Below, piece after piece: positions 8,545 to 59,837 of a stretch of DNA of 64,000 nucleotides (the stretch's first letter is position 1; every line of letters starts with the position of its first letter). Where the stretch lies: positions 1 through 64,000 of the IMG/VR virus record IMGVR_UViG_3300007517_000005. The stretch is one strand, 5' to 3'. The notes beneath the pieces are model-generated. The model made no database searches. It was not told the origin of the DNA and saw nothing but the letters and a program-made list of their open reading frames with translations. A program made the translations under genes and the position numbers. The DNA comes from a virus.

Positions 8545-9069
8545 CTACTGAACACCTACCCCAAAGTATATCTCTTTCTGTGGCTCCCACTTATTTACAT
8601 CCCTCCACAACCTATCCATATCTACTAAACATGGATCTCTCTCAGTAACTTCAGGGTCTAGTACCTCATCATGCAATACCACCTGTGCCCTCTCTATACC
8701 CATCTGAGATATCAAGTATGACAGCGAGTAATATATCTCTACTGTGTACGGCATAGGCCCTTCTAAACATATAGAGTATGCGAACGGGTCTACACTACCA
8801 TTAACTGATTCCCCTAAGTATGATGATGGGCCGCATGCTGACGCTTTAACGTACGCAGGTACTAGGTACACTATCTCCCCATCCCTACGTATTACGGTAT
8901 GGTAACTGGCCTTAAACCTATCATCTAATGACCATGATAAGGCACCCTCCGCAGGCCCATTAGAGTCATGTAATACTACTATCGGTACGCAAAGGCCCGT
9001 GGATATAGCACTCCCTGGCAGTCGCAGCCCTGCGGCACCTCCCCTAGGGTCGTGACCTACAGCACTCAT
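8545..9069 (-). CDS. N-acetylmuramoyl-L-alanine amidase (Amidase_2/PGRP fold)
   Basis: A 174-residue protein. VVLHDSNGP (His34), ASYHTVIRRDGEIVYLVP, a central SICLEG and VVLHDEVLDP (His133) followed by RDPCLVD (Cys147) reproduce the zinc-site order His-His-Cys of T7-lysozyme-type amidases. The start overlaps the spike gene stop (ATGA). The first ~25 residues, rich in Gly/Ala/Arg/Pro, are encoded by family-A repeats (9008-9066), so the N-terminus is repeat-derived. Expected to cut the amide between N-acetylmuramic acid and L-Ala. Confidence 0.85.
   Translation of the reverse strand: MSAVGHDPRGGAAGLRLPGSAISTGLCVPIVVLHDSNGPAEGALSWSLDDRFKASYHTVIRRDGEIVYLVPAYVKASACGPSSYLGESVNGSVDPFAYSICLEGPMPYTVEIYYSLSYLISQMGIERAQVVLHDEVLDPEVTERDPCLVDMDRLWRDVNKWEPQKEIYFGVGVQ
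9008..9066 (+). repeat. Family-A palindromic repeats, tandem, forming the amidase N-terminus
   Basis: Two adjoining family-A units, read on the plus strand as AGCACTCCCTGGCAGTCGC..., GCGGCACCTCCCCTAGGGTC... and a closing AGCACTC. They occupy the codons between the amidase start and its first conserved strand. Confidence 0.75.
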
Positions 9070-11057: not shown

Positions 11058-11079
11058 ATACATTTACTCCCTATAGTTA

Positions 11080-21527: not shown

Positions 21528-22814
21528 CTAGTAAGGCATGAAGTTTAAGTCACCTTGTAGCGAGAGGCGATTATTGATGTCCCCTATAGATGCTACTGTC
21601 ATGTGTACCACACGGTATGGATACGTCAAGTAAGGCATACCTGCATTACCCATTTGTAGGTACATGCCAGGGGCCGCAGGTATATGCGTCTCCATATTAG
21701 TCCTAGACCATATGCCCGGCTTACCATCTGGACTCTCACCAATACAGAACTGTGTACGACCAGGTGCTTGTGCCTCACCCGATGGACTCTTCTCACTAAT
21801 GAACACTACCTTGTTCTTAGGCCAGATACGCTTATTGATGCCATCTACAGGGTCAATGAACTGTGTATCTACTTCACGAATCTGCAACCCTGCAATGGCC
21901 GTAATCATACCATCAGGGCCGAATTGAATGAACTGACTGTACTGACTGGTACCACCTTGTTCAATATTCAATCCACTGCCATTCTGGTACATCATCATCT
22001 GCCCAGTAGACCATCGAGAGATGTTACTAGTTGATAACACAGACCTTAACTCTGGTGACATATACATTGCCGTCAAGTCTGACTTATGTGTCATCTTGAA
22101 CCAGTGCTTGATGGCTTGGATAGTGTATACGTAATCACTGTATGGGTCAGCCCACGAGATACCTACATTCTGGGGGTTGATGGAGTTGGTGTCCTCGAAT
22201 GACCTGAATACACGGGCCTCATTCCTCCCCCCTATACCAGTAGTCACGTTATAACTGAATAGGTTATACGCAGGTATATTACTCGCTACATCTGTAAACA
22301 CTCCAGTCCTAGGGTCTGTATAGCGTATACCACCCAGTAACATACGTGCCCTGAACACATCCCATGTAAGGTTATGCTCCGCTACCATCGTGGCAATCAT
22401 CTTCTGGATCTGCTCACCAGTAGGGTATGGGTCATTACAATTCCTTACCCTGTTATTGATCTCCCCATAACATAGCGATGTACTCTGCCTAATGAATAGA
22501 GGCTGTACATAGAACATCCTCTCCCTACCATAGTTTGGGCCTACTAATACGTCGGGCTTACATGGGAGTACAATTGGGAAGATAGTGTGATTGGGCTCCA
22601 TTGATTGACGCACCACTACAGTCTGTGCTTCAATTGTCTCTACCGGGAATAGCTCCGTCAATGGAGTCACACCTAGCATGGGGATGTATGATTCCGCTAA
22701 CTCTGTGAATACACGCCCCCATTGCGCTTCTGTAGTGCCTGTCGTAACCCATGGAGAGATGTATGGTCCAAAGTTATAAGGCCCGTTAGGTTGTGTCTGT
22801 AATCCTTGTGGCAT
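21528..22814 (-). CDS. Major capsid protein (HK97 fold, gpE-like)
   Basis: A 428-residue protein immediately following the protease/scaffold gene. Layout fits HK97-fold capsid proteins of the phage lambda E-like group: a flexible N-arm, VVVRQSMEPNHTIFPIVLP, a long spine helix around QIQKMIATMVAEHNLTWDVF, and a C-terminal PYRVVHMTVASIGDINNRL strand. There is no evidence for an internal protease-cleaved delta domain. Assembles the icosahedral head. Confidence 0.8.
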   Translation of the reverse strand: MPQGLQTQPNGPYNFGPYISPWVTTGTTEAQWGRVFTELAESYIPMLGVTPLTELFPVETIEAQTVVVRQSMEPNHTIFPIVLPCKPDVLVGPNYGRERMFYVQPLFIRQSTSLCYGEINNRVRNCNDPYPTGEQIQKMIATMVAEHNLTWDVFRARMLLGGIRYTDPRTGVFTDVASNIPAYNLFSYNVTTGIGGRNEARVFRSFEDTNSINPQNVGISWADPYSDYVYTIQAIKHWFKMTHKSDLTAMYMSPELRSVLSTSNISRWSTGQMMMYQNGSGLNIEQGGTSQYSQFIQFGPDGMITAIAGLQIREVDTQFIDPVDGINKRIWPKNKVVFISEKSPSGEAQAPGRTQFCIGESPDGKPGIWSRTNMETHIPAAPGMYLQMGNAGMPYLTYPYRVVHMTVASIGDINNRLSLQGDLNFMPY

Positions 22815-25796: not shown

Positions 25797-27221
25797 TTAT
25801 GAGCCTATACTAGGCTTTGTACTATCTACAGTCGGTACCGCTGCTGCTTGTTTACTACGCTTCTTACTCCTGGGGAATGAGAGTAGGTCACGTACATGAT
25901 TATTATCTATATCATCTGAAGAGTCTATGTACCCTTTATCGGTCATCATGGCTATTGCATCTACTAATACCTTAGTCTCACTCCACCTTATTGGTAACTG
26001 CGGTAAGTCCCCGTAATCGTACGCTGCAGGAACAACCCTAGGATCGAAGTTGTACTGTATTAACTGCGCTACTACTGATGATAGGAAGTCCTGCGTAACC
26101 CTCTGATATATGCTCGTTATGAAGTGGTGGTACATCTCCACCTGCCTCTCCGATGACTGCCCTGAACCTAACCCACTATTAGTATCTCTCATTATTAAGT
26201 TGGGTATGTTCAATCCCGTCATCATCTGCAGGTCGCACATATTGATGGCATCCGTAAAGGCAGATGCAAAGTTACTACCGGTAGTCAATGCCTCTAACTT
26301 CACGGGCTGGTCTACACTTAACTGTGTCAACACTAACCCCACTTCACTCCTCATCTCCGATAGTTCCCTCGCTACTACCTCATGGTAGAACATAGGCCTA
26401 TCCTCTGTAGGGTGCTGCTCATCTGATTGCTGTATTGGTACTATCGCATATACTATCGGGGTGCCATACCTATCCAATGCCACCATCATTAGATCTAATA
26501 TAGACCTCTTGAATAAGTGGTACTCAAATACTGCTGTCAACATGGACTCACCCTCTGGGTTATTGCCCATCCCCTCGTGCACTGTGTGGCAGAACTTGCC
26601 CTTATTTAATCTAACCCATCCCCCTACTGTAGATGTATCCATGGGCTTGGGTACCCATATACCTGTCTGATTGAAGTCCATACCTACTGATGTAGTATTA
26701 GGTACTTTCTCCCCATGCGTTAACATACCATTAGCATTTACTACATACCTGACTTCTGTCGGGTGGTACGTTACTACATCAGTTAACCAAGTCTGTGCCT
26801 CAGATCTAGGTCCTATTTTACCACACCATATGGCTTCCCCTAACCCATCCCCCGCCCATAGACTTTGATACGTTAGATCCTTCAACCACTTCTTCACACC
26901 CCCCTTTAAATTAGCTGCTACAAACTCCTCAATCATAGGGTGTGAGTGTGCGAAGGGGCCCGCCATTGCCGCTACAGAAGAAGCAATCATATTCAATGCC
27001 TCTTTAAAGACTGGCTCATTGATCCTAGCGTAATCGTATGCCGCTAATAAACCAGGGTCTCTGCGCCTCCTCGTCTGGAATGTCTCCCCTGTAGATATTA
27101 AAGGGGTCGCGCGCCCCAACATACCCATCTTTCTTGGTTGTCTCCTTATTAGAGCACTAGTCCCCACGGGGGGTAATGTACTCAACCCTGATTCCTTACC
27201 GCCCGTCGGGTGCTGATCCAT
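25797..27221 (-). CDS. Portal protein (Mu gp29-like)
   Basis: About 474 residues; ATG 27221 is 5 bp from GGAG (GTG 27227 is an alternative). The order fits Mu gp29/DUF935-type portals: LISTGETFQTRR, YDYARINEPVFKEAL, GDGLGEAIW, YHPTEVRYV, then GTPIVYAIVP and TGSNFASAFTDAIN in the crown-wing region, and a Ser/Lys-rich tail. Dodecameric portals form the DNA channel of the head. Confidence 0.85.
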   Translation of the reverse strand: MDQHPTGGKESGLSTLPPVGTSALIRRQPRKMGMLGRATPLISTGETFQTRRRRDPGLLAAYDYARINEPVFKEALNMIASSVAAMAGPFAHSHPMIEEFVAANLKGGVKKWLKDLTYQSLWAGDGLGEAIWCGKIGPRSEAQTWLTDVVTYHPTEVRYVVNANGMLTHGEKVPNTTSVGMDFNQTGIWVPKPMDTSTVGGWVRLNKGKFCHTVHEGMGNNPEGESMLTAVFEYHLFKRSILDLMMVALDRYGTPIVYAIVPIQQSDEQHPTEDRPMFYHEVVARELSEMRSEVGLVLTQLSVDQPVKLEALTTGSNFASAFTDAINMCDLQMMTGLNIPNLIMRDTNSGLGSGQSSERQVEMYHHFITSIYQRVTQDFLSSVVAQLIQYNFDPRVVPAAYDYGDLPQLPIRWSETKVLVDAIAMMTDKGYIDSSDDIDNNHVRDLLSFPRSKKRSKQAAAVPTVDSTKPSIGS

Positions 27222-27270
27222 TATCACTCCATATAAACGCCCCCTGTAAAGGCTAGGTTCGCTATGCTAC

Positions 27271-27306: not shown

Positions 27307-28190
27307 CTACATCTTTGGTAATGCTATGTCGTGGAATAGACTCCTCTGTGGTGTCCTATCTTCCATAGCTTGCTTGATCTCATTAGTCTTCTCCTGCGTC
27401 TTCTTCTCACGCTCGGAGATAAACCCATTCACGGCCTTGACTACCGCCTTTCTATCGAAGAACCCTAACTCTAACCAACTTTTACCTAGTGGCAGTGATG
27501 TCGCATTGGCTATCGCTACCCAGTTATCTAACTCTAATCTCTTAACCGTATCCTCTACGGTGTAGATTATGTGAGCCTCCCATATATTGGGGATCTCTGG
27601 GTCGTACTCTGCTACTAGATTACAAAACCTACGCGGTATGAGTCTACTACGGGAAGCATACCCTGCCTGCGGATCCTTTAAGTGTAATGGTAATGCTACA
27701 CGGCCCTCACTATAACCTAGTGGGGCCGCTGCCCTTGCATACCATGCCGTAGCATCTCTTAAGGTGTGCCACCAGGGGCCTTCGCAGGAGACCTTCTCCC
27801 ACCAGATGCTGGGGGAGTGGCCATCGATGCCATGAGCTTTTTTGCCTGCTCTTGCGCCTGCGCCCTTAACTTATCGTCAATGAATGCAATCGTCATGAAT
27901 AACTCAAGGAAGTACTGTACCTCCTTCGGGTCCCACTCCATAAACAATTGGATTGGGTCTCTCCCAAACTCTACTTGCTGACCCATCTCATCTACTACAC
28001 GCTGCCCATCTACTTCTACAATAGATGCCGCTGCCATTAACTCCTCTAATGTATAACCCTGCTCCCTTGGATTATTACCCGCATACGATTGATACTGCTT
28101 TGCCAGATACACACGATCCTCGAATGTGAACTGCCGTACCTTGACCTCACGGCCCGATGGTAATACTACTGGGTATAATACTGAATCCAT
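27307..28190 (-). CDS. Tail-assembly chaperone, long product made by -1 frameshifting
   Basis: The -1 frame is open from the slippery site (27837) to a TAG at 27307, 177 codons including the stop, and has no start codon of its own. Fused to the first ~118 residues of the upstream frame it gives a ~294-residue protein. The -1 part reads AHGIDGHSPSIWWEK at its beginning, then WYARAAAPLGYSEGR and a Lys/Glu-rich end. This is the G/GT arrangement of tail-assembly chaperones (gp26/gp51 in T4-like phages). Ribosomes that do not slip make the short 143-residue form. Confidence 0.8.
27759..28190 (-). CDS. Tail-assembly chaperone, short product (gp26-like)
   Basis: A 143-residue protein beginning LYPVVLPSGREVKVRQFTF, which resembles the 'LPSG..V..R.FT' start of the T4 gp26/baseplate-hub-assembly family and of tail chaperones. 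The C-terminus after the slippery site is a Pro/Gly/Ser-rich tail, as in lambda gpG-type proteins. SD is weak (GGTAAGAGCAAA-ATG). It helps assemble tail or hub, not part of the mature virion in relatives. Confidence 0.75.
   Translation of the reverse strand: MDSVLYPVVLPSGREVKVRQFTFEDRVYLAKQYQSYAGNNPREQGYTLEELMAAASIVEVDGQRVVDEMGQQVEFGRDPIQLFMEWDPKEVQYFLELFMTIAFIDDKLRAQAQEQAKKLMASMATPPASGGRRSPAKAPGGTP
27837..27843 (-). promoter_or_regulatory. Programmed -1 frameshift site A-AAA-AAG
   Basis: On the minus strand the codons are GCA AAA AAG, giving the classical heptamer A AAA AAG. The -1 frame continues 177 codons with no stop, and the zero frame ends 76 bp later at 27759. The spacing and the lack of an internal start for the second frame make programmed slippage very likely. 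Confidence 0.85.
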
Positions 28191-28339: not shown

Positions 28340-31300
28340 TTATCCTACCACGTTTACTTCCCAATCATCCCCTTCTGAGTAATCACTCTCACCACTTGGG
28401 TATGCACTGAAGTCCGTAGTGGGATTATCCATCACATACGATACCTCTATAGCCGCTCTCATAGGGTCTCCATCATCATCCATTACCGTACCCTCACCCA
28501 CTTGCGCTAATCTCTCCCCTATCATATCCTGCCTCTTTGATTCTGTTTCTGACATACTCCTCACGAAGCTCTCTACAATGCCTAGTGATGGTATTAAGTT
28601 AGTGCCATGCACTGCTACCTCCCCCCCTATTACGGATGTGAGCATCCCTAGTACAGATGATAGTACTGCACCTCCTAATGTATTGGAGGCCGCCTTCCAC
28701 CCCTTGTACCTATCTACATCCATAGGTCTATCTACACGTAAGGGGCTAAACTTAGATAGTATCCTCTCCGCACCACCCATAATGGCAGGGGCTATTACCG
28801 CTGCACCCATAAAGAACCCTACCTCTCTACCAACCCATCTCCTTACCCACTCCCCCTCATCCTGTGAACCCTTAGACTCCGCATGTGCCATCCTCGCTCT
28901 AAATGATTGCCCTAGTACTGACGCCACACCTGGTCTACCCATTTGCGAGTACCCTAACATCGATACCGTCCCACCCACTACCTGCCCTATTGTATTCTCG
29001 TTGATAGAGCCGGTCGCCATTAGTGAACCTAAGAGTGTGAGCCCTGCACCCAATACCATGTCATTCATGTCGTGCATCCTACCTACGGCATCGTGCATCT
29101 CCTGACTATGCCTTGCATGACTAGCCGCCTGAGCTCCTGGATTCATGCCCGTTAGTACTGCCCTAGGGGGATTTGATGTTACTGCCTGTGCCCTCAAGGC
29201 AGCACTAATTATAGGCGTAGACGCATCGCCCATCTCTCTACCCCGTATCTCTCTGGTCTCCGCCTGGTGCAGTGGATCTCTTGCCTCTACTATGGCCTCT
29301 TGTGACGCCTGCTGCGCTGTCATACCCTTGGATACCTTCTGCTCGGATAGTCTCCGGATGGTCGCTGATAATACTTCAGCTTCTGGTAATGATGCCCCTA
29401 ACGCACTACTGATTGTGCCAGCCCATGATTGATCTGAGTGCATGGTCTGACTATTGAACGCATCCCCTATATTATCTAGTAATCGTCTCCTCTGTCCTGT
29501 TGATGTAGCCTCTAATGCTACATCCAAGAACCCCATGGGGGAGCTATGCTCACCTATCACCTCCCCCGCGCTATTCCTTACATTGAACTTCCTATAACTC
29601 TCCCCCTCCCCTAATGGGTCATCATGGTACCCTACACGTATACCCCCATCCTTCTTATTGATGACCCTTACGCCTACACCACTCACACTATTCAACTCAA
29701 GGAAGCTCCTACCACCTTGAGTCTGACCTAGTACCTGCTCCATACCTGTACTATCGCCCATGAAGTCCTTCATCACGGTCATGTAATGTGAGGCAGCCTC
29801 TGGGTCTATGCCATTCATACTACTATTCATTAGGGCTATCGTTATATCTGTATCCGCTAACTCCGTTGATATGCCTGACATTGTCTGAGACCTACCGCCC
29901 CCTAACTTCCCTGCCTTCTTCCTCAATGTCTCTAATGTGACGAACTGATTCAATCCCTCCCCTACACTACCGAAGATAGGGTCTGTCTGTTTCCTCCCTT
30001 CATCTACTAACGCCAGCATTAAGGCCTTGTTCTTGCTCGAAGCTTCATCCCACCACTCATTCGCATCCTTTGATAGGGCCGCCCCTATGTCAGCCTTCAA
30101 TGAGGGGTCGGATATGAACTTCCTATCCATAGCCTCATCCCGATCCACATCCTCCCCAACCCCTAAGAAGCCACGTATGCCACTCCATATTGTATCTAGG
30201 AATGGTTGATTGTCTTTTGACCCTAGTTCGTAGCGGAAGGCAGTAATCGTAGCTCTCATGTCCCTCGCTACTTTGTACCTGACTACATCCCCAATAGTCC
30301 CATCTGATACATCCACACCCCTATCGCGCATCTCACTACTCAAGCGCGTCATCTCCTCATTAGATGAGATCTTGTACTCCTTACTCAAAAATGCTATAGA
30401 ACTATCATCTATGCCTGTCAGGGGCTTACCATATACATTATTACTTGATGTCTCTATCAGGGTACTTAACTGCATGTATGACCGTAATCCAGGGCCAGGG
30501 CCTAACTTACCCGCCATCTCACTCAAGACTGCCCTCGCACTCGCATCATCCCCCTGGTCAATGTACTTCTGGTACTCCCCATGTGTCTTCTGTAAATCAC
30601 CTAATACATCCGTGTCCCCCTTGAATTTGATACTATCCCTTAGTAGCTGCTGTGCACTCTTCATGAATGCCTGCAATGACTCCGCTCTCTTCGCCTCTAT
30701 ATGTACCTGATTGAATGTCCCCTCTACATCATCTGCCATAGTGGTACCAGCATAGTACTCCTTCATACTATCCATCACGGTACTGCCACCCTCACCGCCT
30801 AGTACATGCGATAGAGCTATTAAGGGACTATCGCGGAATAAGGTACCCACTAGGGCATTGTATGACTTACCTAATATGTCACCGCCCGCTACCCCTAATG
30901 TCTTCGTTAACATGTCATATACTGTGGGGCTCATTGATGCACCACTACCCATACCCATATACTTACTGTAATTGGATACTGCTACCTCTGATGATGATAG
31001 TTGGGCCGCACCCTCCATTAGGCTACTACTTACATCCTGCTCAGGCTTAGCTAAGATAGACTCCATCATCTTAGTTATTACGTCTGCTCTCAATGATGGG
31101 TTGTTTGTTAATAGCTCCCTGAAGTGATTATCAGACACATCCTTCAACATCACTGACGTATCTATATTGGAGGTAGATAATGCCTCACTTATTGATGCAC
31201 CCTGCTTGAGTGATGATAATGCACTTCTGAAGTCCTCTGTTGCATGTATAGACTCCATCGTCGCATGTAACGCCATGATGTTATTATCGTGCGCTACCCC

Positions 31301-34300
31301 TTGTACCCCACCGAATAATCCCCTCGATTGCTGTAAGTACGTAGGCAGTACCTCCATTGATATGGGCTTCTCCTGGTACTCACTCATGAATGCTTGCGAT
31401 ACCCCTAAGTAAGATGACACCTCCTTCCTCAGTAAAGGGTCATATGTCTGCGCTAATGTATCCCTCACCGAGGACATCTCCGCATCTATAGCTTTGATCC
31501 TCATGCCTATCTCCTCATTAGCTATGCGGTACTCATCACTCGCTAACCAATACTCATCTAAGTACTCACCCCCATTACTACTCGCCTGCTTCCTCAGCAT
31601 CCCCTGCCTTAATGTATTACTCTTCACCCTATCCGTTAGCCTCTGCCTATCATTCATGGCAGTCCCTATCTTGGAGAAGATTACCGTGAAGTTATCACCA
31701 TCATAATCTAGTAACCCCAGTGCATGACCTGACATCACGGGCATTAACCCCAGGCTCTTATTGCGTCTCTCATCTAACTGTGACATCCCCTGACTCTCTA
31801 AATACACATTCAAGTTCTTCACTAACCCCACGGCTGTAAATTGCTGTCTCTGTAACTCCGTAGAACCGAATGGGGCTGACCTGAAGACTGTTGCCTGCAA
31901 TACATCAGATGTATTTAGAGATACCTGTAATGACTCCATACGCGCTAAGGGGGCCTCAATAGATGTCCACTCACCCCTACCCTTATGTAATGTATCTAAG
32001 GCGCTACTTAACTCCCTTAACTCTGTGCGGCTTGTCTCTATTAACTCCTTCTGGGAAGTGTCGTAACCATATGCACTATCTACTCTCTCAAGTGATACCA
32101 ATAGTTCATCTATAGATACCTTAGATCTATCCACAGAGTCCGCTAATAACTCCCTACTCTCACCCATCCCTAATCCCTGGAATAGACTCCTATCTATCCT
32201 ATACGTCTCTATACGCCCTCGTACACTACCCTGCCACTGCCCCATACTATCTGCATTGATAGCCCTCCCTAACTGTTCTATGAGGTTCTTATTAGGGACT
32301 ACCTTCTCACCCGCTGCCATTGCCTGCTCACGGTTAGCGTACTCCTCACCACCTACCATGAATGATGACATCGTCTCCGTACGTGAGAACAACCCCTCCC
32401 ACTCCTTCGTGGCGTTCTCTCTTCTTCTAGGGTCTGCTGCTATCTGCTGTCTCTCTACTATCTCTCTTAACCTCCCTGTCGGGAGTGCTAACGACCTTGT
32501 TACCTTATCCCTCTGCTTACCCGTCCACGATGACTCTACTGTCTCGTACTTCCTATAATAATTACCATCCCCTGACTCTGATACACGTAATTGACTATCG
32601 CCCCCTACACTGTATCTCTTGAACCAAGTACCGCCCTCTTCGTTATAACTACTGCTAGTGTTGAATGCTGTATCGAACTGCCTGCGTTGGTACTCAAGCT
32701 GCGATGTAACATTACCCTCCGCCTCCCTTAACCTAGTCAGTGTTCCCTTCTTTAATGTTATATCCCCGTACGTGCCAGTAAAGGCCACACTCTGCTCTAG
32801 AACGCGCGATAACCTCCCTAATGGTGGTAACTCATTAGCTGTTGTCTCTATTAATAAGGATGGTGTAATAGACGTATATGGGTCTATACGGTATGGCTTA
32901 TCTTTACTAGATACGTACTGGTCATCTAACGCTAACCTAGCACGCCTCTCACTACCCTCGTATACCTTCTTACTCCTTAACCATGACTCTAATGCTGGGG
33001 GGTTTACTGTCCTCTCGTAACTGTTCTCCCATACACCACTCGCACTACGCAAGACCTGCTCCCCTAGCTCTACTGCAAAGTAATTACCCTCATTACCCTC
33101 TCGTGCACCTACTATATCTCTATAACTCCTCACACCTGGTAAGTTCGGGATATCTTCTGTACCCACACGGGAACGGGTATAATCCTTTATCTCCTGCGTT
33201 ATACGGTCTGCTTGTACCTGGCTCACACCTATACCAGACCTTGTCTCCATTAGGGTAGATACATGGTTAGCATCTTGTATAGTCCATAACCGGGCCGCTA
33301 TATATTCCTTCTGTAGTAAAGGGTTCCTTGTTATGTACTCTACATCCCCTTGCACTGTACGCAATAACATTGAGCCCTTCTCCCCCATACCACCCATTAA
33401 GGCATCCCTCTCCGCTTTCAACAATCGCATGCTATCCCTTGATGCAGGATCGGATAAGGAGCGTGTTACCTCCTCTAATCTCTGACGGCGTAGAGAATCA
33501 CGTACATCCCCTGCACCACGCATACCTTCCTCGGGGGCTAAAAACATCCCCTGTGGTAATCCGAATGTGGCGGCGAATGTACCCACAAACCCACGTAATC
33601 TCGCCTCCATCTTCAAGCGTGTACCCGTTGATGCCTCCGCTATCCTCTCCACAATCCCATACGCGGTCACATAATAGTTCTGTAGTGCTTTCACCTCATC
33701 TGCTGTGAACTCTACAGACCCCGCCCCTGTTGCCTTTACCTTCGATAAGGTAGAGAATATATTACCTATTGCAGTTCCTGGACTGAATGCAGATGCTAGT
33801 GTTAGTGTACTCCTCACTAATTCATCTGTATACGATCCATACTGGATACCATATGTTCTTAAGTCCTCTGCACTGGGTAGGTAGAAACTAGTACCTGGTG
33901 ATACATCGTCGAACCTCGCAATGATGCGCCCTGACTCCGATGGCATACTATCGAATACCACCGCTGGTAAATGATATATACCTCTCTCATGCGACATCTC
34001 TCTGGCTATAGCTTCTGCCTCCCCCACACCAAATGCCTTAGTCGCTAGTAACTCATATCTCCTACCCACATCCTGTATGGCTGATAGGGATGTACTATAC
34101 TCACCCCTCCACATAGAACCTAACAATGATTGCGTGTGTATACTACTGGGATTACTAGCCTCGAATAATAATGTACTCAACTCACTCCCTAATGTGCGTA
34201 CATCCCCCACACCACTTGCTAGGGCAGTCACTCTCTCTTCAATAGCTATCTGTACCGCCCCACCATAATCTTTATATGACTTCTTCAGGGCCGTTATATC

Positions 34301-37300
34301 CTCCATCCCTGAACCATATATCCCTAAGTTCCTGGACATCGCTAACGGGGTGAATAACTGGGGGTCGAATACTGAACGTATCTCTACATCCTCTATGCCC
34401 TGTAACTTCAACATCATCATCGTGGCCGTCTCTGTAGTGGCGGTCGATACCAACATATTCGCTAACACTACACGTAACTTCGATAAGTCCCCACCCTCTG
34501 TGAACTCCTTCGCTATCTGCGTGAATGGACGCACTAAGTCAGCATTCTGTAAGGCACCAGTGCCTTTAGTACCTATGGGCTCCTTCGATGATGAATACGC
34601 TAAGTCCATCTTCAAGTACACTGATGCTACAGACTGTGATAACCCCCTCACCATAGCCTGTGCTAACTCTTCTTCAGGGGCCTTACTTAAACCCACAAGA
34701 CTCATTAACTGTTCTATTACATCGGGGCGGTAACTTACATCTCCAGGTGTCACCCTCTCATCCCTCATTAACTGCCGCGTTATATCTAAGGCTGTTAATA
34801 TAGTGGCCGCCTGCCTCTCTATTGCATTATCTACATTCAAGTACTTACTACTCTTCGTACCCTTAGACATCAACTCACTCAGCGTGGACTTGATACCTGT
34901 ACCCCCTGACTTATCTGGGGCACCACTCAAGGCTGATAACATCTGCTCGTTTGTTATATCCATTAACGAGTACATTGACGCAGGGTTCCATGCTTTATCT
35001 AATGATGATAGTAATTCCCTACTCCCTGCCTCGGGGCCCTGTCTCAGACCTATCTGCAGCGCGGTCTCCTTGTACACCCCAGGCATCTCACGAAGTGCTT
35101 CATATAAAGCTGATGATAATGCCCCTTTATCTGGTGTGTCTATGTAATTACTACCGAAGGCTAATAGCATCGCTACTGCAGCCTCTCTCTCACTCATGGC
35201 ATCTAATACAATATTCGCCTTACCCTCGCGTAGTAATGTACCGCCATGCTCTAGTGAGAATGACTTCAGGTTCGATGGGTTCACTAACCCGAATATATCC
35301 TTACTCTCTATCTCCCCTAATACATTATCTGATGGCTTCCCCTTCCTTAAGGCCGCTATATTCTCGAAGTACGCTGATGTTAAGAATACCGCCACACCTT
35401 TGAATAACGATGTACCCGAATCTACACGGCTACCACCACTCGGGGACTTAGCCTGCATGTACGTTAACTCATAGAATAACTGGTTCCCACCTCCGCCTGG
35501 TAAAGCCCTCATTGATAATAGGTACTCTTTACTATCCTCCCCAGGCCTTACCCAGCCCGTCGTAGTGATAGTAGATGCAGATGAACGACCTATCTCCCTA
35601 CCCTTATTCTCAATCATTGCCTCTAGCACAGATCTCTGACCCCTATCATCTATTACCTCTTTCGGGAGCGCTAATATGTCCCCTTCCGTTAGTGATGATA
35701 GTTCGTGGTTCGTCACTGCACCAGTTATATGGTTCACCACTATTACCTTTTGTAGTGACTCATCGAACATCACCACATCCCTGGCACTAGCTAATTCCTG
35801 ACCCCCAGCATCCGCCCTAGTCCACGCTACACCTAACATGGATGCCTTTACCTTCTTCGTGGTAGTACGTAAGTTCCCTTCCATAGGACTAGCATCGGGG
35901 TTAGCGTAGAAGTAATCTGAGTACATCCCCGCCATCTGTACCAATGCGAATGATGGGGAGGATGTGAACCCCTTCATACCCGTACTCATTACATCTGATG
36001 ATATCGCCCTCATACGCACTAACTCATGCCCTATACCACCCTCATTGAAGTCCTCGATATCTAATCCCAACTCCATTAGGGAAGACTCGTATGCCTCCAT
36101 TATTGCTACCTGCTCACCACTCATCATACCGCGCACACTCATGGCAAAGGATGCAGCTAATACTACATCTTGCTCAGGCATTATCCTATCTACATACTGC
36201 TCCACCTGACGGGGCGTCCATGTGGGGTTCTTGCGTACTAACTTCTCCCTTAATCTCTGCCCTATATCCCTACCATACTCTCTCGCACTAGCTAAGAAGT
36301 CCGGGCCCGTACCATCCATTGCTGTAGTTAAGGCCTGCGTTAACTTACCCATGCCCCTCTGACCTTGGGTGTTCTTTAATCTCTGTGGTATCTGCGCTAC
36401 CTTCCCCTTACCACCAAACATATATGTCAGTAACTCATCACTGCCTTGCTCATCAAATACTGCTAGGGCCCGCACCTTCGCCTTATCTGATAAGGTAGAT
36501 GATAATATATCCTCCCTTGTAGTAGAGAATCCCACACCCATTGAGGATGTCACCCTATGGTGCATTATCGTATCTACTGCTGTACCTCTCTGCCCGAATA
36601 GTGTGAGACCTGTATCTGTAGACGTACCTTCATTATTAGTCCCACCCGCTACATTACGGTGTAGTCCGGGCGTACCTATTGATGAATAAGGACTGATTGC
36701 TCTAGGTATTGCTATAGCCCTTGTTGCTAGTGAATGGAACGGTGTCCCTTCTAAGTTCTGTAGTACCTCTTGGTACTCATTCGTTGCACTATACATCGGT
36801 AGTCTGAACCACCCCTGAGCACCGCTATACTGTGACACCTGCGCCGATAATAAGAAGGGCTCCATCATCGCCCCTGACATCTTATTGATGCCCGATGATA
36901 GCATCTCCATATATGACGCATTAGATTGCGCTACAGTTGCTTGGACTACCGCTAACCTGAAGTCCGCACTGGTGTCTAGTAATGGTAATAACATATCAAC
37001 TATGTCACTACTATAACTGCCCGCCCTCTTTATCCTCGCCTTACTTAAGTCTCCATCTGATATAGGTACTGATGCCCTAGCTTCTACATCAGACTTATTC
37101 TCTAACTTGTACTGCTCATACTCGGATGCCGTGTACCCATATGACATTGATGATAGTAAGTGCTGTACATTATCTATTATTCCCCCTAGCTCATTAGATA
37201 CATCCTTACCTCTTACCTCCTGACCAGTCCATGCGCGTGCCTTCTGTAGGGCGCCATCTACATCCCCCCTCAATCTCCTCGCTAATGTATCCGATAGGTT

Positions 37301-40027
37301 GGTAATACTACTCCTATCACTCTCCCCAGCCTGCTGTATCAGATCCCCTGTAGGTGTGAAACTATCTAAATACTTCTGTACTAATGTCCTCTTCTCACCC
37401 TCTGATAAATGTGATAGGTACTGCTCTGGACCCCACACTAATAACCTATTCGTACTCTCCAATAATAATGTCGATACTAGTGATAGTGTTGTACCTATAG
37501 GGTTCATTACCGCTGCCTTATTTGGGGCTACAGTCACGAACTTCTTATTCAATGCCTCCGCTCTACCTAGTAATACATCCTGCCCTATACCACGGGATAT
37601 ATCCTCTACCCGTATATTCAATGAGGCTGCACTACTATTGTGGATAAGAGATCTCGATATCACGCGCCCCTTTGTTATATCTAATACGTACCCCTCATCA
37701 CCCCCCATACCCCCCGCAAGGGTCGTATAATCCCATCTGAATCTAGGTCCATTACCCTGTACCCTCTCAAACCCCTCACCAAACCCTGCTAACTGCCGGG
37801 CGTCCATGCTCAGTGATAAACCTATACGCTCTGTTCCAGACTTACCACCATATTTATATGACACCTCCCCCACACCTAATGTGGTAGTTAACTCTGTCAA
37901 CCGTGCATGTAACTCCCCTAACCTAACCTTATCTACCTTATCCTCGTACCACGCGGACGTGGGCCTCCCTTGTACATCCCCTAACTCTGTGCGTGTTAAT
38001 GTACCCCAATCTTTACTGAATGATTGACGGGCTAGCTCTAGCTCCGCATTCAACTCCTCCTGTGATAGTGAGTAAGGGCCCGTCCTTGCCTTACCCTGTA
38101 TCATGGCTAACCCCATCTCCCTATTAGTTCTCTCTATCTCCTGGGGGGATGTATTGAACTCTGGTGCGTGCATAGAGAAAGGCCCTAGGTTAGATGAGCC
38201 TGAGTAGAACGATCTCGCCTTATCTATATCCCCTACTGCTGCCTGGGTAGAACCATTAATGATTGACTCAGTTACTAAGTACTGTTTTGAGTGCTGCATT
38301 GGTACAGTAGTCAACCTTATGTTCCCAGAGGTCATCGCTAGTAATTGCCTTGCATAACTCTCATTGAACCCCTCCGCTAATGTACTTCCCGTGGCTGCTT
38401 CTACTCTCCGCATGAAGCTCTTCACGGGGTTACTTACATCGTACCCAACACGTGATACTAACTCTTCTAATGAGTTAATAGGTAATCCCGTACCCTTGAA
38501 TATAGCCTCTGTACGCTCGTACATCGGAGTAAGGACGTGCTCAGAGTAGTTCCTATTATCTATTGCTAGGAAGGCTCTATTACCTATTACTAAATCTAGT
38601 AGCTCTGTTTGTATACCCTTCATGATGGGGCCGCGGACTGTGCTAGGGCTATCAAACTTACCCATCTCCCCATGCAACATCTCATTGAACATAGTGTCCT
38701 CGTGGTACAACAAGAACACTTGATTCAATATCCCATAGAACTTCTTATCCGATGGGCTACGCATCATATCCAACGTCTCCCGTAAGTGCTCATACGTCTC
38801 CGCTGACCCTACTATCTGCCCCTGGTTTAGGCGTAACTGTTCTGTGGGATCTTTTCGTAAAGCATCACGATTACCCACAGATGTCTGTAACTGCTTGAAT
38901 AACTTATCAGAACTAGATATTAGTACCTCTTCCTCGCGTGTGGGTGTCATCCCCTGATTCCTGTACTGCTCCTCAGAGTACTCACGAGTCTGTAATCTAC
39001 GCACTACCTCATAGTTACTACCCGCCTGATTCACATCATTACCCACAGGGGCTGTTAAGTTGAGACTACCTATCACCCCAAACTTATCAGTCACCATTAC
39101 CTTCTGGTGACTCTTCCTATCCTGTACGAATAACTCTATATCACCTCTCTCCCCTAATGCTTCTTTAACCCTCCTCAACCTCTCTAGTGATAGTAGGTTA
39201 GGGCCTAATATATCGAACCCCTTCTGCCCCTGCATTCCCTCATCTGGTAACGATAGGCGCACTGATACCTTGATGCCAGGAGTATCCCTTACTTTCTGTT
39301 CTAGCGCATCTAGTACTGTTCTATTCTGTAATTGGTATAGGTCTATTACTATCTCACGCTCTGCCTGATCTATCACATCTACTATCAGACCCACACCGGG
39401 GCGCCTTATATATGGATCCCCTAATGTACCGAACGTACCCTTCTGCGATAATGTCCTCGTCTCTCTATTCAATCTACTCATGCGGGTCTGTAATTGCGTA
39501 GCAGGTAATGTGTCCTTACTCACTAACACATCTACTATTTCTGTCGTGCGCTGCCTCAATGAGTATGAGAATGCGTCCTCATCTTCACCCCATGCTTGTG
39601 ACCTGTTTAAGCCCGTGTATGTACCGCTGGGCATATCGTAGAATGTCTTGAATACAGAGCGTGATGCCTCTCCAGCCTCGTATCCCTTCTCACTAAAGAA
39701 GTCACCATGCAATGACTTCAATACATCCTTACCTTCTGATAGTAGTGACTGTATGTCAGACCCGAATGTTGATATAGCACCACGGCTTAACTGCTCTAAT
39801 GCTGACTCATTACTCAAGCGGGATAAGTCAAACTTCTCCCCTACCTGATTGAGCGGAGGTGTCCTTGTACCACTGCGGGCATTATATGGTTCTGATGTGT
39901 ACGGTCTCTTATTACCTACCGCACTCGCTGTGCGTATAGACTTACTCTTACCCCTGACTGCCTTCCTTGCAGCCCTCCTTGCTTTAGAGAACCACTTCCT
40001 TGATAGTGCCCGCACCTTCCTTAACAT
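28340..40027 (-). CDS. Giant virion protein: PLD domain, DYDGD two-barrel RNA polymerase motif
   Basis: 3895 residues from ATG 40027 (after TAGGAGAGTGAAG; GTG 40033 is possible). The N-terminus is very basic. Residues ~205-345 form a phospholipase-D-type domain with RKSHQKVMVTDKFGVIGSLN (His307, Lys309, Asp314), and a second, degenerate HKD at ~579-615 (MQHSKQYLVTE...SGSSNLG, Asp replaced). Around residue 2774, GHALGLLDYDGDNFTVIF carries the DbDGD signature of two-barrel RNA polymerases (cellular beta', YonO-like and crAss-like phage enzymes). The C-terminal ~250 residues hold Gly-rich hydrophobic segments that could contact membrane. A family-C repeat encodes SLALPTGR near residue 2515. Size, place and composition suggest an ejected virion RNA polymerase and/or tape measure; no other tape-measure candidate is in the window. 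Confidence 0.75.
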   Translation of the reverse strand: MLRKVRALSRKWFSKARRAARKAVRGKSKSIRTASAVGNKRPYTSEPYNARSGTRTPPLNQVGEKFDLSRLSNESALEQLSRGAISTFGSDIQSLLSEGKDVLKSLHGDFFSEKGYEAGEASRSVFKTFYDMPSGTYTGLNRSQAWGEDEDAFSYSLRQRTTEIVDVLVSKDTLPATQLQTRMSRLNRETRTLSQKGTFGTLGDPYIRRPGVGLIVDVIDQAEREIVIDLYQLQNRTVLDALEQKVRDTPGIKVSVRLSLPDEGMQGQKGFDILGPNLLSLERLRRVKEALGERGDIELFVQDRKSHQKVMVTDKFGVIGSLNLTAPVGNDVNQAGSNYEVVRRLQTREYSEEQYRNQGMTPTREEEVLISSSDKLFKQLQTSVGNRDALRKDPTEQLRLNQGQIVGSAETYEHLRETLDMMRSPSDKKFYGILNQVFLLYHEDTMFNEMLHGEMGKFDSPSTVRGPIMKGIQTELLDLVIGNRAFLAIDNRNYSEHVLTPMYERTEAIFKGTGLPINSLEELVSRVGYDVSNPVKSFMRRVEAATGSTLAEGFNESYARQLLAMTSGNIRLTTVPMQHSKQYLVTESIINGSTQAAVGDIDKARSFYSGSSNLGPFSMHAPEFNTSPQEIERTNREMGLAMIQGKARTGPYSLSQEELNAELELARQSFSKDWGTLTRTELGDVQGRPTSAWYEDKVDKVRLGELHARLTELTTTLGVGEVSYKYGGKSGTERIGLSLSMDARQLAGFGEGFERVQGNGPRFRWDYTTLAGGMGGDEGYVLDITKGRVISRSLIHNSSAASLNIRVEDISRGIGQDVLLGRAEALNKKFVTVAPNKAAVMNPIGTTLSLVSTLLLESTNRLLVWGPEQYLSHLSEGEKRTLVQKYLDSFTPTGDLIQQAGESDRSSITNLSDTLARRLRGDVDGALQKARAWTGQEVRGKDVSNELGGIIDNVQHLLSSMSYGYTASEYEQYKLENKSDVEARASVPISDGDLSKARIKRAGSYSSDIVDMLLPLLDTSADFRLAVVQATVAQSNASYMEMLSSGINKMSGAMMEPFLLSAQVSQYSGAQGWFRLPMYSATNEYQEVLQNLEGTPFHSLATRAIAIPRAISPYSSIGTPGLHRNVAGGTNNEGTSTDTGLTLFGQRGTAVDTIMHHRVTSSMGVGFSTTREDILSSTLSDKAKVRALAVFDEQGSDELLTYMFGGKGKVAQIPQRLKNTQGQRGMGKLTQALTTAMDGTGPDFLASAREYGRDIGQRLREKLVRKNPTWTPRQVEQYVDRIMPEQDVVLAASFAMSVRGMMSGEQVAIMEAYESSLMELGLDIEDFNEGGIGHELVRMRAISSDVMSTGMKGFTSSPSFALVQMAGMYSDYFYANPDASPMEGNLRTTTKKVKASMLGVAWTRADAGGQELASARDVVMFDESLQKVIVVNHITGAVTNHELSSLTEGDILALPKEVIDDRGQRSVLEAMIENKGREIGRSSASTITTTGWVRPGEDSKEYLLSMRALPGGGGNQLFYELTYMQAKSPSGGSRVDSGTSLFKGVAVFLTSAYFENIAALRKGKPSDNVLGEIESKDIFGLVNPSNLKSFSLEHGGTLLREGKANIVLDAMSEREAAVAMLLAFGSNYIDTPDKGALSSALYEALREMPGVYKETALQIGLRQGPEAGSRELLSSLDKAWNPASMYSLMDITNEQMLSALSGAPDKSGGTGIKSTLSELMSKGTKSSKYLNVDNAIERQAATILTALDITRQLMRDERVTPGDVSYRPDVIEQLMSLVGLSKAPEEELAQAMVRGLSQSVASVYLKMDLAYSSSKEPIGTKGTGALQNADLVRPFTQIAKEFTEGGDLSKLRVVLANMLVSTATTETATMMMLKLQGIEDVEIRSVFDPQLFTPLAMSRNLGIYGSGMEDITALKKSYKDYGGAVQIAIEERVTALASGVGDVRTLGSELSTLLFEASNPSSIHTQSLLGSMWRGEYSTSLSAIQDVGRRYELLATKAFGVGEAEAIAREMSHERGIYHLPAVVFDSMPSESGRIIARFDDVSPGTSFYLPSAEDLRTYGIQYGSYTDELVRSTLTLASAFSPGTAIGNIFSTLSKVKATGAGSVEFTADEVKALQNYYVTAYGIVERIAEASTGTRLKMEARLRGFVGTFAATFGLPQGMFLAPEEGMRGAGDVRDSLRRQRLEEVTRSLSDPASRDSMRLLKAERDALMGGMGEKGSMLLRTVQGDVEYITRNPLLQKEYIAARLWTIQDANHVSTLMETRSGIGVSQVQADRITQEIKDYTRSRVGTEDIPNLPGVRSYRDIVGAREGNEGNYFAVELGEQVLRSASGVWENSYERTVNPPALESWLRSKKVYEGSERRARLALDDQYVSSKDKPYRIDPYTSITPSLLIETTANELPPLGRLSRVLEQSVAFTGTYGDITLKKGTLTRLREAEGNVTSQLEYQRRQFDTAFNTSSSYNEEGGTWFKRYSVGGDSQLRVSESGDGNYYRKYETVESSWTGKQRDKVTRSLALPTGRLREIVERQQIAADPRRRENATKEWEGLFSRTETMSSFMVGGEEYANREQAMAAGEKVVPNKNLIEQLGRAINADSMGQWQGSVRGRIETYRIDRSLFQGLGMGESRELLADSVDRSKVSIDELLVSLERVDSAYGYDTSQKELIETSRTELRELSSALDTLHKGRGEWTSIEAPLARMESLQVSLNTSDVLQATVFRSAPFGSTELQRQQFTAVGLVKNLNVYLESQGMSQLDERRNKSLGLMPVMSGHALGLLDYDGDNFTVIFSKIGTAMNDRQRLTDRVKSNTLRQGMLRKQASSNGGEYLDEYWLASDEYRIANEEIGMRIKAIDAEMSSVRDTLAQTYDPLLRKEVSSYLGVSQAFMSEYQEKPISMEVLPTYLQQSRGLFGGVQGVAHDNNIMALHATMESIHATEDFRSALSSLKQGASISEALSTSNIDTSVMLKDVSDNHFRELLTNNPSLRADVITKMMESILAKPEQDVSSSLMEGAAQLSSSEVAVSNYSKYMGMGSGASMSPTVYDMLTKTLGVAGGDILGKSYNALVGTLFRDSPLIALSHVLGGEGGSTVMDSMKEYYAGTTMADDVEGTFNQVHIEAKRAESLQAFMKSAQQLLRDSIKFKGDTDVLGDLQKTHGEYQKYIDQGDDASARAVLSEMAGKLGPGPGLRSYMQLSTLIETSSNNVYGKPLTGIDDSSIAFLSKEYKISSNEEMTRLSSEMRDRGVDVSDGTIGDVVRYKVARDMRATITAFRYELGSKDNQPFLDTIWSGIRGFLGVGEDVDRDEAMDRKFISDPSLKADIGAALSKDANEWWDEASSKNKALMLALVDEGRKQTDPIFGSVGEGLNQFVTLETLRKKAGKLGGGRSQTMSGISTELADTDITIALMNSSMNGIDPEAASHYMTVMKDFMGDSTGMEQVLGQTQGGRSFLELNSVSGVGVRVINKKDGGIRVGYHDDPLGEGESYRKFNVRNSAGEVIGEHSSPMGFLDVALEATSTGQRRRLLDNIGDAFNSQTMHSDQSWAGTISSALGASLPEAEVLSATIRRLSEQKVSKGMTAQQASQEAIVEARDPLHQAETREIRGREMGDASTPIISAALRAQAVTSNPPRAVLTGMNPGAQAASHARHSQEMHDAVGRMHDMNDMVLGAGLTLLGSLMATGSINENTIGQVVGGTVSMLGYSQMGRPGVASVLGQSFRARMAHAESKGSQDEGEWVRRWVGREVGFFMGAAVIAPAIMGGAERILSKFSPLRVDRPMDVDRYKGWKAASNTLGGAVLSSVLGMLTSVIGGEVAVHGTNLIPSLGIVESFVRSMSETESKRQDMIGERLAQVGEGTVMDDDGDPMRAAIEVSYVMDNPTTDFSAYPSGESDYSEGDDWEVNVVG
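32474..32493 (+). repeat. Family-C repeat inside the giant gene
   Basis: A 20-bp unit CCCTGTCGGGAGTGCTAACG flanked by ACCT at 32470 and 32494. With one border it adds 24 bp, eight codons, in frame. Confidence 0.8.
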
Positions 40028-43699: not shown

Positions 43700-44087
43700 A
43701 TGAAAAGAGCACTCGTTGAGAGACATACTGTACTCCTCGCTACAGTCGGCAGTATCGCATATGGTCTGACATTATCTACCTCCGATAAGGATATCAAAGG
43801 CATCTGCATCGCACCCGCTGAATATTACTACGGTCTCAAACAGTTCGAGCAGAAGGATAAAGGCTGGGATGATACAACAGATCTCTCAAGTGGTCTATTC
43901 CCAGTCCTTGATGGTATTAAAGACTGCACTATATATGAGCTCAAGAAGTTCCTCCGCCTGGCCATGAATAATAACCCCATAGTACTGGAGATGTTATGGC
44001 TCAACGATTATGAGTACTTATCTACAATAGGGCGTGCACTTGTTCGTAGTAGACATCTATTCCTATCCAAGAAGGTCAAGCATACCT

Positions 44088-44110
44088 TCCCAAGGGTCGT
44101 AGCCTACGGC
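44088..44110 (+). repeat. Family-A repeat inside the nucleotidyltransferase
   Basis: A 23-bp unit flanked by ACCT at 44084 and 44111; the 27-bp gain adds nine codons between KKVKHT and YIGYAYAQ, which are adjacent in the family as I know it. Confidence 0.85.
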
Positions 44111-44229
44111 ACCTACATAGGCTACGCATACGCACAACTGAAGAAAGTATCTACACATAAGTCATGGTTACTCAACCCCCCTACTGCTAAGCCTCAAGCT
44201 AATGACTATGGCTTAGATGATGCACACCT

Positions 44230-44297
44230 CCCTGTCGGGAGTGCTAACGACCTCCCTGTCGGGAGTGCTAGCAACGCTGTGAGCGTAGCGACTAACG
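44230..44297 (+). repeat. Composite of two family-C repeats, the second split by a family-B insertion
   Basis: Family C at 44230-44249 is bordered by ACCT. A second copy runs 44254-44270 and 44295-44297, also bordered by ACCT. Between its halves lies a 21-bp family-B unit (44271-44291) flanked by CTA, the 24-bp gain preserving the frame. Confidence 0.9.
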
Positions 44298-44650
44298 ACC
44301 TCCCCTTAACTAAGAGTCAGATGGGCTCATTCCTAGAGTACATACTAGTGCTCACTAAAGATAGTATTGAATTCATGGAACCCGTGGCTGAACTCAAGAA
44401 GCTACTACTCGAAGATATAGACCTTACCGCTATCGTTAAACAGAGACCACTAACTACTGATGTTATACCCTATGTGCAGGCATTGACACGTGGTAGTACA
44501 AACTTCATGCAATTACTACAAGCTAGTCAGGCTTATAGGAAGGCTATCTCTGAGTGGGATAACTACCAACAATGGAAGACTAATAGGAACCCAAAGAGGG
44601 CCGCACTTGAAGCACATTGTGGGTTTGACTCTAAACATGCTGTGCATAGT

Positions 44651-44674
44651 GCCGCATGGCTGCGACTGCCAAGG
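44651..44674 (+). repeat. Family-A repeat inside the nucleotidyltransferase
   Basis: A 24-bp unit between AGT at 44648 and AGT at 44675, in frame, encoding SAAWLRLPRS-like residues. Confidence 0.8.
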
Positions 44675-44728
44675 AGTGTACGTCTATTACGTCAAGGTCT
44701 TGAGGTGTTACTACATGGTACCCTCACT

Positions 44729-44754
44729 GTTGATAGGCGTGGTTGATAGGCGTG
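44729..44754 (+). repeat. Exact 13-bp tandem duplication causing a frameshift
   Basis: GTTGATAGGCGTG occurs twice in a row. Removing one copy joins TVDRR to DAGDAPQLL in a single frame. Confidence 0.95.
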
Positions 44755-48195: not shown

Positions 48196-50235
48196 ATGAC
48201 TACATATGACTTCAAAGCCTTTGCTACCGCTATCAATGATCACTTCAAGTTGATGGCTAACTATAACCTATATACCACTACTGCTTCTAAAGATGATCTA
48301 TACGACGCATACCTACAAGCATACCCTGATGGTACTAACCCTATATACGTGAATCGTACAGAGTATGATTGCTCTACCTGTAAGGAATTCATACGTAACA
48401 TTGGGGGTGCGGTTGCTATCGTAGATGGGGCAATAGTACCTGTGTGGGATGTGCCGGGGCTTGAGTACCCATACAATGTGGTTGCTGAGACTATGTCCGC
48501 TTACGTTACATCACACCCTATTAGCTCTGTCTTCTGCCTTAAAGAACTATCCTATGGTGCACCACATAGTAAACAGTTATTACAGGGTGGGGATATACGC
48601 ACCTGGTACCACTTCTATGCGCGTGTAGATGCTAAGTACCATTCCAATACCCCGGCACAAGTTATAGGGGACTCTATTACTGCTATGCAAGTCCTACGTA
48701 GAGGATTGAGTGAGTTAACCCTGGACTCTATCACTACTGTACTAGAACTCATAGATACTAACTCTATCTATAGAGGGGCTGAACATAGGGCCGCTCTCGT
48801 AGCCTTTAAGACACTTAAGGAGTCGTATGACACTACACCCGCAGAACAACAGGAACTACTGCTATGGCTTAATGTGACACACCATAATGCACGGTTCCGT
48901 AATACTGTCATCGGTACATTAGTACAAGACCTATCAGATGGTGTGGAACTAGAGAAGGCAGTACACTCCTTCGAGACTAAGGTTGCACCTACTAACTATA
49001 AGAGGACTAAGTCCCTTATTACACCCGGTATGCGCGATGGTGCCCTGAAGACCGTGCGGGAGTTGGGGCTTGAACCCTCCCTCAGTCGTAGACATGCACG
49101 TGTATCTGATGTCTCCATTAATGATGTCCTGTGGGTTGATAATGCAGTACGGGGGCTTATGAAGGAAGGCGGTATAGCTGCACTACTGCAGACACAAGTT
49201 AAGGTTAAACCCCCTAACTTAGATAGTGCTACCCCTATCAGTATTGAAGACTTCATGTCCTCTGTACTCCCACAGACTACTACGCTGCAGGTATTACTGG
49301 AGAGTAGATTACTAGGTAACCTAATGAGCCTCACTGCACCTTGTGATGTGAGCTCCCCGCGTATCTTTAAGTGGGGTAATAACTTCGGGTGGTCATACCG
49401 TGATAATGTGGCCGATAGTATTATCAAGCAGAGAGTTAAAGGGGCGGGGGGTAATGTTACCGCCCCCTTTAGGGTTAGCCTCGCATGGTTTAACTATGAT
49501 GACCTAGACATATACGTTTATGTACCTGGGGGCGGGTGGCCTATATGCTTCATGAATAGGACTGTGGGCACAGGTACATTGGATGTAGATGCAAATGCAG
49601 GTCGTCGTCGCAGTAGAACACCCGTCGAGAATGTATGTTGGACCGCTCCGATAAATGGCACCTATCAGGTACACGTTAAGAACTTCAGTAAGAGAGAGTC
49701 TATTGATGTAGGCTTTACCTTAGAAGTAGAATCCATGGGGATTATCTCTACATACCATTACGACCGCCCTGTAGGTGATCGCTGTATTGTACATTGCCTA
49801 ACCATTACCGTCAGGGGTGGACAGGTAACTGATATCACAGCCGCCCCCAATGTAGAAGGTAATTCATCTTCCACGACTGAGTGGGGCCTCATGACACAGA
49901 CACTCGTGAAGGTAGATACCGTAATCCTCAGCCCTAATTACTGGGGGGATAATCATAGTGGTAATAAGCACTGGTTCTTTATCCTACATGAGTGCCTCAA
50001 CCCTGAGCCTACTAGGGGTATCTATAATGAGTTCCTGCGCCATGAACTAGAATCACATAAAAAGGTGTTTGAGGTGCTCGGTGATCTTACTAAAGTACCG
50101 CCTGTGCCTGAACAACTATCAGGCCTAGGGTTTTCGTCTACACGTAACGATAAGCTTAAAGTCATAGCTACTGGCATCAAAGCTAACAGCGCCGTGAGCA
50201 TATCGACTAAAGCCTATGAGATTAACTTCTCGTAA
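48196..50235 (+). CDS. Large protein with C-terminal DUF2135/YfaP-like beta-sandwich
   Basis: 679 residues after CTAGGAGAAAGCT-ATG. The N-terminus has TEYDCSTCKEFIRNIGG (CxxC) and a predicted helical middle with HNARFRNTVIGTLVQDLS. The C-terminal ~270 residues contain VSLAWFNYDDLDIYVYVPG, LDVDANAG and NGTYQVHVKNF, resembling DUF2135/YfaP-type beta-sandwiches. Homologues occur in large phages and bacteria (from memory), but the activity is unknown. The C-terminus carries a degenerate family-B repeat (50187-50206, direct repeats CTAA). Confidence 0.7.
   Translation: MTTYDFKAFATAINDHFKLMANYNLYTTTASKDDLYDAYLQAYPDGTNPIYVNRTEYDCSTCKEFIRNIGGAVAIVDGAIVPVWDVPGLEYPYNVVAETMSAYVTSHPISSVFCLKELSYGAPHSKQLLQGGDIRTWYHFYARVDAKYHSNTPAQVIGDSITAMQVLRRGLSELTLDSITTVLELIDTNSIYRGAEHRAALVAFKTLKESYDTTPAEQQELLLWLNVTHHNARFRNTVIGTLVQDLSDGVELEKAVHSFETKVAPTNYKRTKSLITPGMRDGALKTVRELGLEPSLSRRHARVSDVSINDVLWVDNAVRGLMKEGGIAALLQTQVKVKPPNLDSATPISIEDFMSSVLPQTTTLQVLLESRLLGNLMSLTAPCDVSSPRIFKWGNNFGWSYRDNVADSIIKQRVKGAGGNVTAPFRVSLAWFNYDDLDIYVYVPGGGWPICFMNRTVGTGTLDVDANAGRRRSRTPVENVCWTAPINGTYQVHVKNFSKRESIDVGFTLEVESMGIISTYHYDRPVGDRCIVHCLTITVRGGQVTDITAAPNVEGNSSSTTEWGLMTQTLVKVDTVILSPNYWGDNHSGNKHWFFILHECLNPEPTRGIYNEFLRHELESHKKVFEVLGDLTKVPPVPEQLSGLGFSSTRNDKLKVIATGIKANSAVSISTKAYEINFS
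50187..50206 (+). repeat. Degenerate family-B repeat in a coding region
   Basis: A 20-bp unit CAGCGCCGTGAGCATATCGA between CTAA at 50183 and 50207. 24 bp in frame, encoding NSAVSIST. Confidence 0.7.
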
Positions 50236-59765: not shown

Positions 59766-59837
59766 TGCTGGGTAGCACAGTGGCAGTGCGCTTGATTGTT
59801 ACTCAAGATGTCGTAGGTTCAATCCCTACCCCAGCAG
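59766..59837 (+). tRNA. tRNA-Asn (anticodon GTT)
   Basis: A full cloverleaf: acceptor TGCTGGG/CCCAGCA, D-stem GCAC/GTGC, anticodon stem CTTGA/TCAAG with loop TTGTTAC (GTT), T-stem GTAGG/CCTAC with loop TTCAATC, discriminator G. CCA is not encoded. It is the only tRNA seen in the window, followed by a terminator. It may supplement host Asn decoding. Confidence 0.95.

Follow-up and report, generated by a model that had tools for sequence, protein, structure and literature searches.

The largest ORF in the window (the 64,000-nucleotide stretch of DNA from a cyanophage-like virus analysed here, part of a virus record of 85,511 bases) raises the question of whether a single phage protein can combine a PLD-type domain with an RNA polymerase delivered from the virion. 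A previous sequence-only reading saw in this ORF a PLD domain joined to a two-barrel RNA polymerase motif, in a protein that might be injected, start early transcription and also serve as tape measure. The ORF proved real and lies on the minus strand, the strand being left unstated in that reading:

28340–40027, minus: giant ORF, 3895 aa, ATG at 40027, match to phrog_31006 (E=3.9e-92)

The minus-strand frame is uninterrupted between 28340 and 40033, where a GTG, in frame and two codons before the ATG, would give a protein of 3897 aa; the ATG at 40027 is favored as the start because it is fitted by an upstream AGGAG. Residue numbers used here count from the GTG and exceed those of the earlier reading by two.

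The giant protein and its family

The giant protein is a member of a conserved, functionally unannotated family of phage proteins of 3.5–5.4 kaa. The matched family, phrog_31006 (3562 positions, function-less annotation), groups gp080 of the Microcystis phage Ma-LMM01 (3562 aa) and its relatives; our literature search found no description of the family, which is present in PHROGs and GenBank without a function. Relatives occur in about 15 IMG/VR contigs, and no homologues outside phages were found in the bacterial and archaeal genome contigs scanned. Identity to the window protein is 64–67% for a truncated protein of the Microcoleus phage My-WqHQDG and mostly 20–30% for the 18 diverged members that we compared. 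Members of the Ma-LMM01 gp080 family are true orthologues, collinear with the window protein (for Ma-LMM01, 24% identity across ~2100 aa) and likewise endowed with a PLD domain and a DFDGD motif, although they are annotated only as hypothetical or of unknown function; the window protein differs from them by its DYDGD motif and its longer linker. Much of the length variation in the family resides in this linker, which precedes R2718 (residues about 2230–2600): it is ~170 residues longer in the window protein than in its closest relative, L005, and the corresponding region of L058 has up to 1400 residues.

Two relatives carry the giant gene as adjacent ORFs (8242–10188 and 10188–16223 in L021; 2582–6994 and 6998–13690 in L163), the first encoding the PLD domain and the second DFDGD, which could reflect a real separation or a sequencing error. 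Note also that the My-WqHQDG record (L003 1–150, OR578706) begins with a tandem repeat, STDVSGSGSTVLPIV, that falls in the truncated giant protein and may be an artefact of the assembly end.

The N-terminal PLD domain

A Pfam scan of the whole giant protein returned nothing significant; Pfam PLDc_2 matches residues 217–328 (E=6.5e-8, above the gathering cutoff) and is matched in 8/10 family members. The hallmark of the PLD superfamily is a pair of HxK(x)4D...GSxN motifs that make one active site, and two HxK...GSxN motifs are found here, the second lacking the Asp:

38174–39421, minus: PLD-superfamily domain, residues about 205–620, delimited by PLDc_2 and alignments
39059–39109, minus: first HKD motif, H309-x-K311-x4-D316, then GSLN325 (H, K and N invariant in the family)
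38189–38293, minus: second, degenerate HKD motif, H581-x-K583...GSSN615 (H, K and N invariant)

The Asp of the first motif varies among members (D, N or E). In the second, a Thr occupies the +7 position and GSSN lies ~30 residues further on. Judged by sequence, the N-terminal region is solidly assigned as a PLD-type domain of two halves, the second of them degenerate; this assignment bears out the PLD domain, the HKD site followed by GSLN and the weaker second HKD of the earlier reading. Searching PDB sequences with family profiles gave weak PLD matches only and no RNA polymerase.

The DbDGD site and other invariant residues

The region spanning residues 1200–3140 contains a series of conserved motifs, ordered as the K motif, RxPxG, DbDGD, LGKxYN and RDxIK:

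35393–35428, minus: R1536...LFK1545GV, candidate catalytic Lys (DPBB-B-like KGV); R1536, L1543, K1545 and V1547 invariant
34583–34594, minus: S1814-x-x-K1817, invariant
31865–31882, minus: R2718-x-x-P-x-G2723 (FRSAPFG); R2718 and G2723 invariant, P2721 in all members but one
31694–31708, minus: DYDGD, residues 2776–2780 (D2776, D2778, D2780); invariant D[FYW]DGD in 18 members
30857–30874, minus: LGKSYN (L3054–N3059), invariant, LGKxYN in the family
30620–30649, minus: QxxRDxIKxK (Q3129–K3138), invariant QxxRDxIK, trigger-helix-like only by eye

Residues D2776, D2778, G2779 and D2780 are invariant in 18/18 diverged members, the second position of the motif being F, Y or W, and composition predicts 0.025 chance occurrences of DbDGD. 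The DYDGD noticed in the sequence-only reading is thus present beyond chance, and D[FYW]DGD is probably, from its conservation, an invariant metal or catalytic site. The Tyr of the window protein is rare in the family; it is found in L060 and also in a proven RNA polymerase, P23-45 gp64. An EF-hand reading of DxDGD was rejected by eye, position 6 of the loop being devoid of Gly.

A conserved Lys upstream of DYDGD, named beforehand as a feature that would support a polymerase, exists as K1545 and also as K1817. The LFK1545GV stretch is lexically similar to WKGVIV in gp64, LKGTVIV in gp96 and NKGVIS in β, with a profile comparison that is not significant. Residues 1480–1600 were considered as a DPBB-B barrel and set aside: the likeness is lexical only, and the profile test is powerless even between most proven families. 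Further invariants comprise K1211/Q1214/Q1217/R1218 and K1590/H1596. The spread of invariant residues over 2000 residues suggests a large enzyme.

Comparison with two-barrel RNA polymerases

The FRxPxG motif upstream of DYDGD resembles FRNPVMG in gp96, YRIPxxG in crAss-like RNA polymerases, RSP in YonO and NRAP in β′. The spacing between its Arg and DbDGD is 58–70 residues in the family versus about 35–43 in the reference polymerases (counted from reference sequences), and by eye the intervening region looks helical rather than barrel-like.

Profile–profile alignment placed DbDGD in register on the DbDGD of gp96, the YonO family and RpoC, with scores of 27.6, 27.2 and 28.5, respectively, and of 18.6 for the crAss-like RNA polymerases. 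In a shuffle control in which all columns were permuted except the five motif columns, the corresponding mean scores were 25.7, 25.7, 28.0 and 16.3 (standard deviations 2.2–3.5). The observed scores match these means; therefore, no likeness beyond the five-letter motif is shown. Among pairs of proven families (YonO, crAss-like, Thermus phage and RpoC), 6/7 passed the control and the seventh was weak (6/60 shuffles as high). Likewise, hhalign against gp96, gp64, gp66, crAss RNA polymerases, the YonO family, RpoB and RpoC aligned the motif only. Since similarity in the motif flanks was looked for by this shuffle-controlled profile comparison and not found, the giant protein cannot at present be filed in the two-barrel family. 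AlphaFold models of L013 1690–2889 and L005 1450–2649, built from 13 and 16 aligned sequences, showed no barrel, but their confidence was so low (pLDDT 50.2 and 48.7, pTM 0.30 and 0.29) that they speak neither for nor against one.

Of the two-barrel proposal, the invariant DbDGD stands and a conserved upstream Lys exists as a candidate catalytic residue, whereas the expected profile match to gp96, YonO and β′ comes down to the motif. Active single-chain two-barrel RNA polymerases that share only a few residues with other RNA polymerases are known, namely YonO (PMC5467207) and gp96 (PMC10770324). On its invariant residues, the central region is plausibly a two-barrel RNA polymerase.

The C-terminal hydrophobic module

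28607–29059, minus: hydrophobic, Gly-rich segments 3659–3678, 3733–3759 and 3784–3809, candidate membrane module from hydropathy

These segments lie in the last 240 residues, near 225, 145 and 95 residues from the C-terminus, and recur at similar distances from the end in 12/12 members examined, not all three reaching the threshold in every one. By analogy, they recall ejected proteins and are a candidate membrane module.

Gene neighborhood

27759–28190, minus: gp081 orthologue (phrog_32670), neighbor gene; phrog match and synteny
25797–27227, minus: portal protein (phrog_113), Ma-LMM01 gp083 orthologue; phrog match and synteny
21528–22814, minus: major capsid protein (phrog_30785), gp086 orthologue; phrog match and synteny

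In relatives with a legible flank (L005, L007, L008, L009, L031, L033, L036, L042 and L046), the giant gene adjoins the gp081 orthologue, beyond which come the portal gene and, where the flank is long enough, the capsid gene. In the window, the genes for sheath, tube and baseplate are found at the opposite end from the giant gene. At the position of Ma-LMM01 gp098, the window has two minus-strand ORFs (1879–5005), and this locus is, by position only, the likeliest candidate for the tape-measure gene.

A baseplate-type protein (phrog_30576; 9066–11063, minus) contains a Beta-lactamase2 domain (PF13354, residues 409–605, E=3.5e-15), and the My-WqHQDG gene at the matching place in the gene order (L003 25351–27312) is annotated as beta-lactamase family; the window protein may be a tail-tip serine hydrolase that acts on peptidoglycan. 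The plus strand encodes an RlaP-like nucleotidyltransferase (43700–44746; PF10127, E=3.3e-14), a 679-aa protein with no Pfam family that matches the function-less phrog_1735 (48196–50235; E=1.9e-223) and the sole tRNA found in the window, tRNA-Asn(gtt) (59766–59837).

Discussion

Whether the giant protein is a virion-ejected PLD–RNA polymerase–membrane protein is, in our judgment, an evenly balanced matter. Beyond the observed domain, motif, family, gene order and hydropathy, we infer packaging, ejection, polymerase activity and a role in early transcription, as follows. The protein would be packaged near the portal and ejected with or before the DNA. Its N-terminal PLD-type nuclease or phosphotransferase, a domain identified by sequence, may act on nucleic acid or phosphodiesters; the D[FYW]DGD site would bind Mg, and the central region, with its upstream invariant Lys and Arg, would most likely make RNA as two-barrel RNA polymerases do. 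While the genome enters, the C-terminal hydrophobic helices could anchor the protein in the cell membrane, a position from which it would be able to transcribe the first phage genes.

Several features favor an ejected polymerase: the invariance of D[FYW]DGD in 18 members, together with invariant polar residues across 1200–3140 that form a polymerase-like set; the occurrence of DYDGD in the proven RNA polymerase P23-45 gp64; a giant size and a head-module location common to crAss-like RNA polymerases and N4 gp50 (PMC12633501); the hydrophobic module near the C-terminus, seen in all members examined; and the 85.5-kb record, in which no cellular-type RNA polymerase subunit was detected. The polymerase reading is weakened by DbDGD flanks devoid of the likeness to RNA polymerases that most proven pairs show, and by the Arg–DbDGD spacing. 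In addition, all three classes of Ma-LMM01 promoter have a σ70-like appearance, as reported from four examples for the early genes gp054–gp063 (PMC5780444), so that no virion RNA polymerase is obviously needed; the text of that transcription paper makes no mention of rifampicin (PMC5780444). Our literature search found no virion proteomics of the giant protein.

The motif-only likeness to RNA polymerases and the helical-looking RxPxG–DbDGD interval would suit an ejection or internal virion protein with a PLD nuclease that, for example, degrades host DNA or processes DNA ends; DxDGD would then be a metal site, structural or catalytic, with no relation to RNA polymerase. Such a protein would account for the certain PLD domain and the hydrophobic C-terminal module, but the sets of invariant Lys, Arg and Asp residues spread over 2000 residues at a distance from this domain point to another large active site, and RxPxG plus DbDGD is an RNA polymerase-like combination; we regard this explanation as possible but doubtful. 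That the protein is an enzyme, whether a polymerase or not, which the infected cell makes and the virion leaves out is improbable: Ma-LMM01 gp080 lies on the strand opposite to the structural genes and is not named in the main text of a paper reporting five late genes, which include the head proteins gp086/gp087 and the sheath gp091 (PMC5780444), but adjacency to the gp081, portal and capsid genes is constant wherever the flank is legible, and the hydrophobic module and the size are typical of ejected proteins.

The tape-measure role suggested by the sequence-only reading, i.e. a tail tape-measure protein with fused enzymatic domains, is very improbable. The ORF is indeed the largest in the window, and P23-45 gp96 offers a precedent for an RNA polymerase–tape measure fusion (PMC10770324). 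However, the giant gene abuts the portal/capsid module in most relatives checked, beyond the portal and opposite the tube and baseplate genes, rather than lying between these genes, while the gp098 locus occupies the expected tape-measure place. In general, tape-measure proteins account for 0.15 nm of tail length per residue. Ma-LMM01 gp080 would thus imply about 530 nm, versus the 260-nm tail reported for the relative MaMV-DH01 (PMC9927357), and the 3.5–5.4-kaa length range of the family, much of it in one linker, does not fit a ruler either.

As an ejected polymerase, the giant protein would have several partial counterparts. P23-45 gp96, the tail-tape-fused virion RNA polymerase of a Thermus phage, is also giant and has FRxPxxG before DFDGD, but its polymerase is N-terminal, in a true tape-measure gene, with no PLD domain reported, and the two share no profile similarity beyond the motif. 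The giant crAss-like virion RNA polymerase (phi14:2 gp66, PDB 6VR4; gp077 in KC821624) has YRxPxxG and DFDxD, but as DFDID or DFDVD, and gave the lowest of the four profile scores. In YonO of SPbeta, RSP...PIS...DNDGD resembles RSPP...PIS...DFDGD, although YonO is a stand-alone protein of 839 aa and the resemblance is not significant beyond the motif. Finally, N4 gp50 is an ejected virion RNA polymerase of about 3500 residues with a membrane segment, but its polymerase is single-subunit and T7-like, with an unrelated catalytic motif.

That Ma-LMM01-like and related phages inject a PLD–RNA polymerase–membrane fusion, of a two-barrel lineage recognisable by its catalytic residues only, is a tentative proposal whose chances we place a little under even. 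If the giant protein is a virion RNA polymerase, it would be a PLD-fused, portal-linked variant of the known giant virion RNA polymerases and a new deep branch of the two-barrel enzymes, and it would change the published view that Microcystis phages have no RNA polymerase and depend on host σ70 transcription (PMC5780444; PMC9927357). Because hosts are in culture (Microcystis, with Ma-LMM01 or MaMV phages), the polymerase reading can be tested directly. Even if it is not an RNA polymerase, this conserved, portal-tied PLD giant is an unexplained infection component of many aquatic phages.
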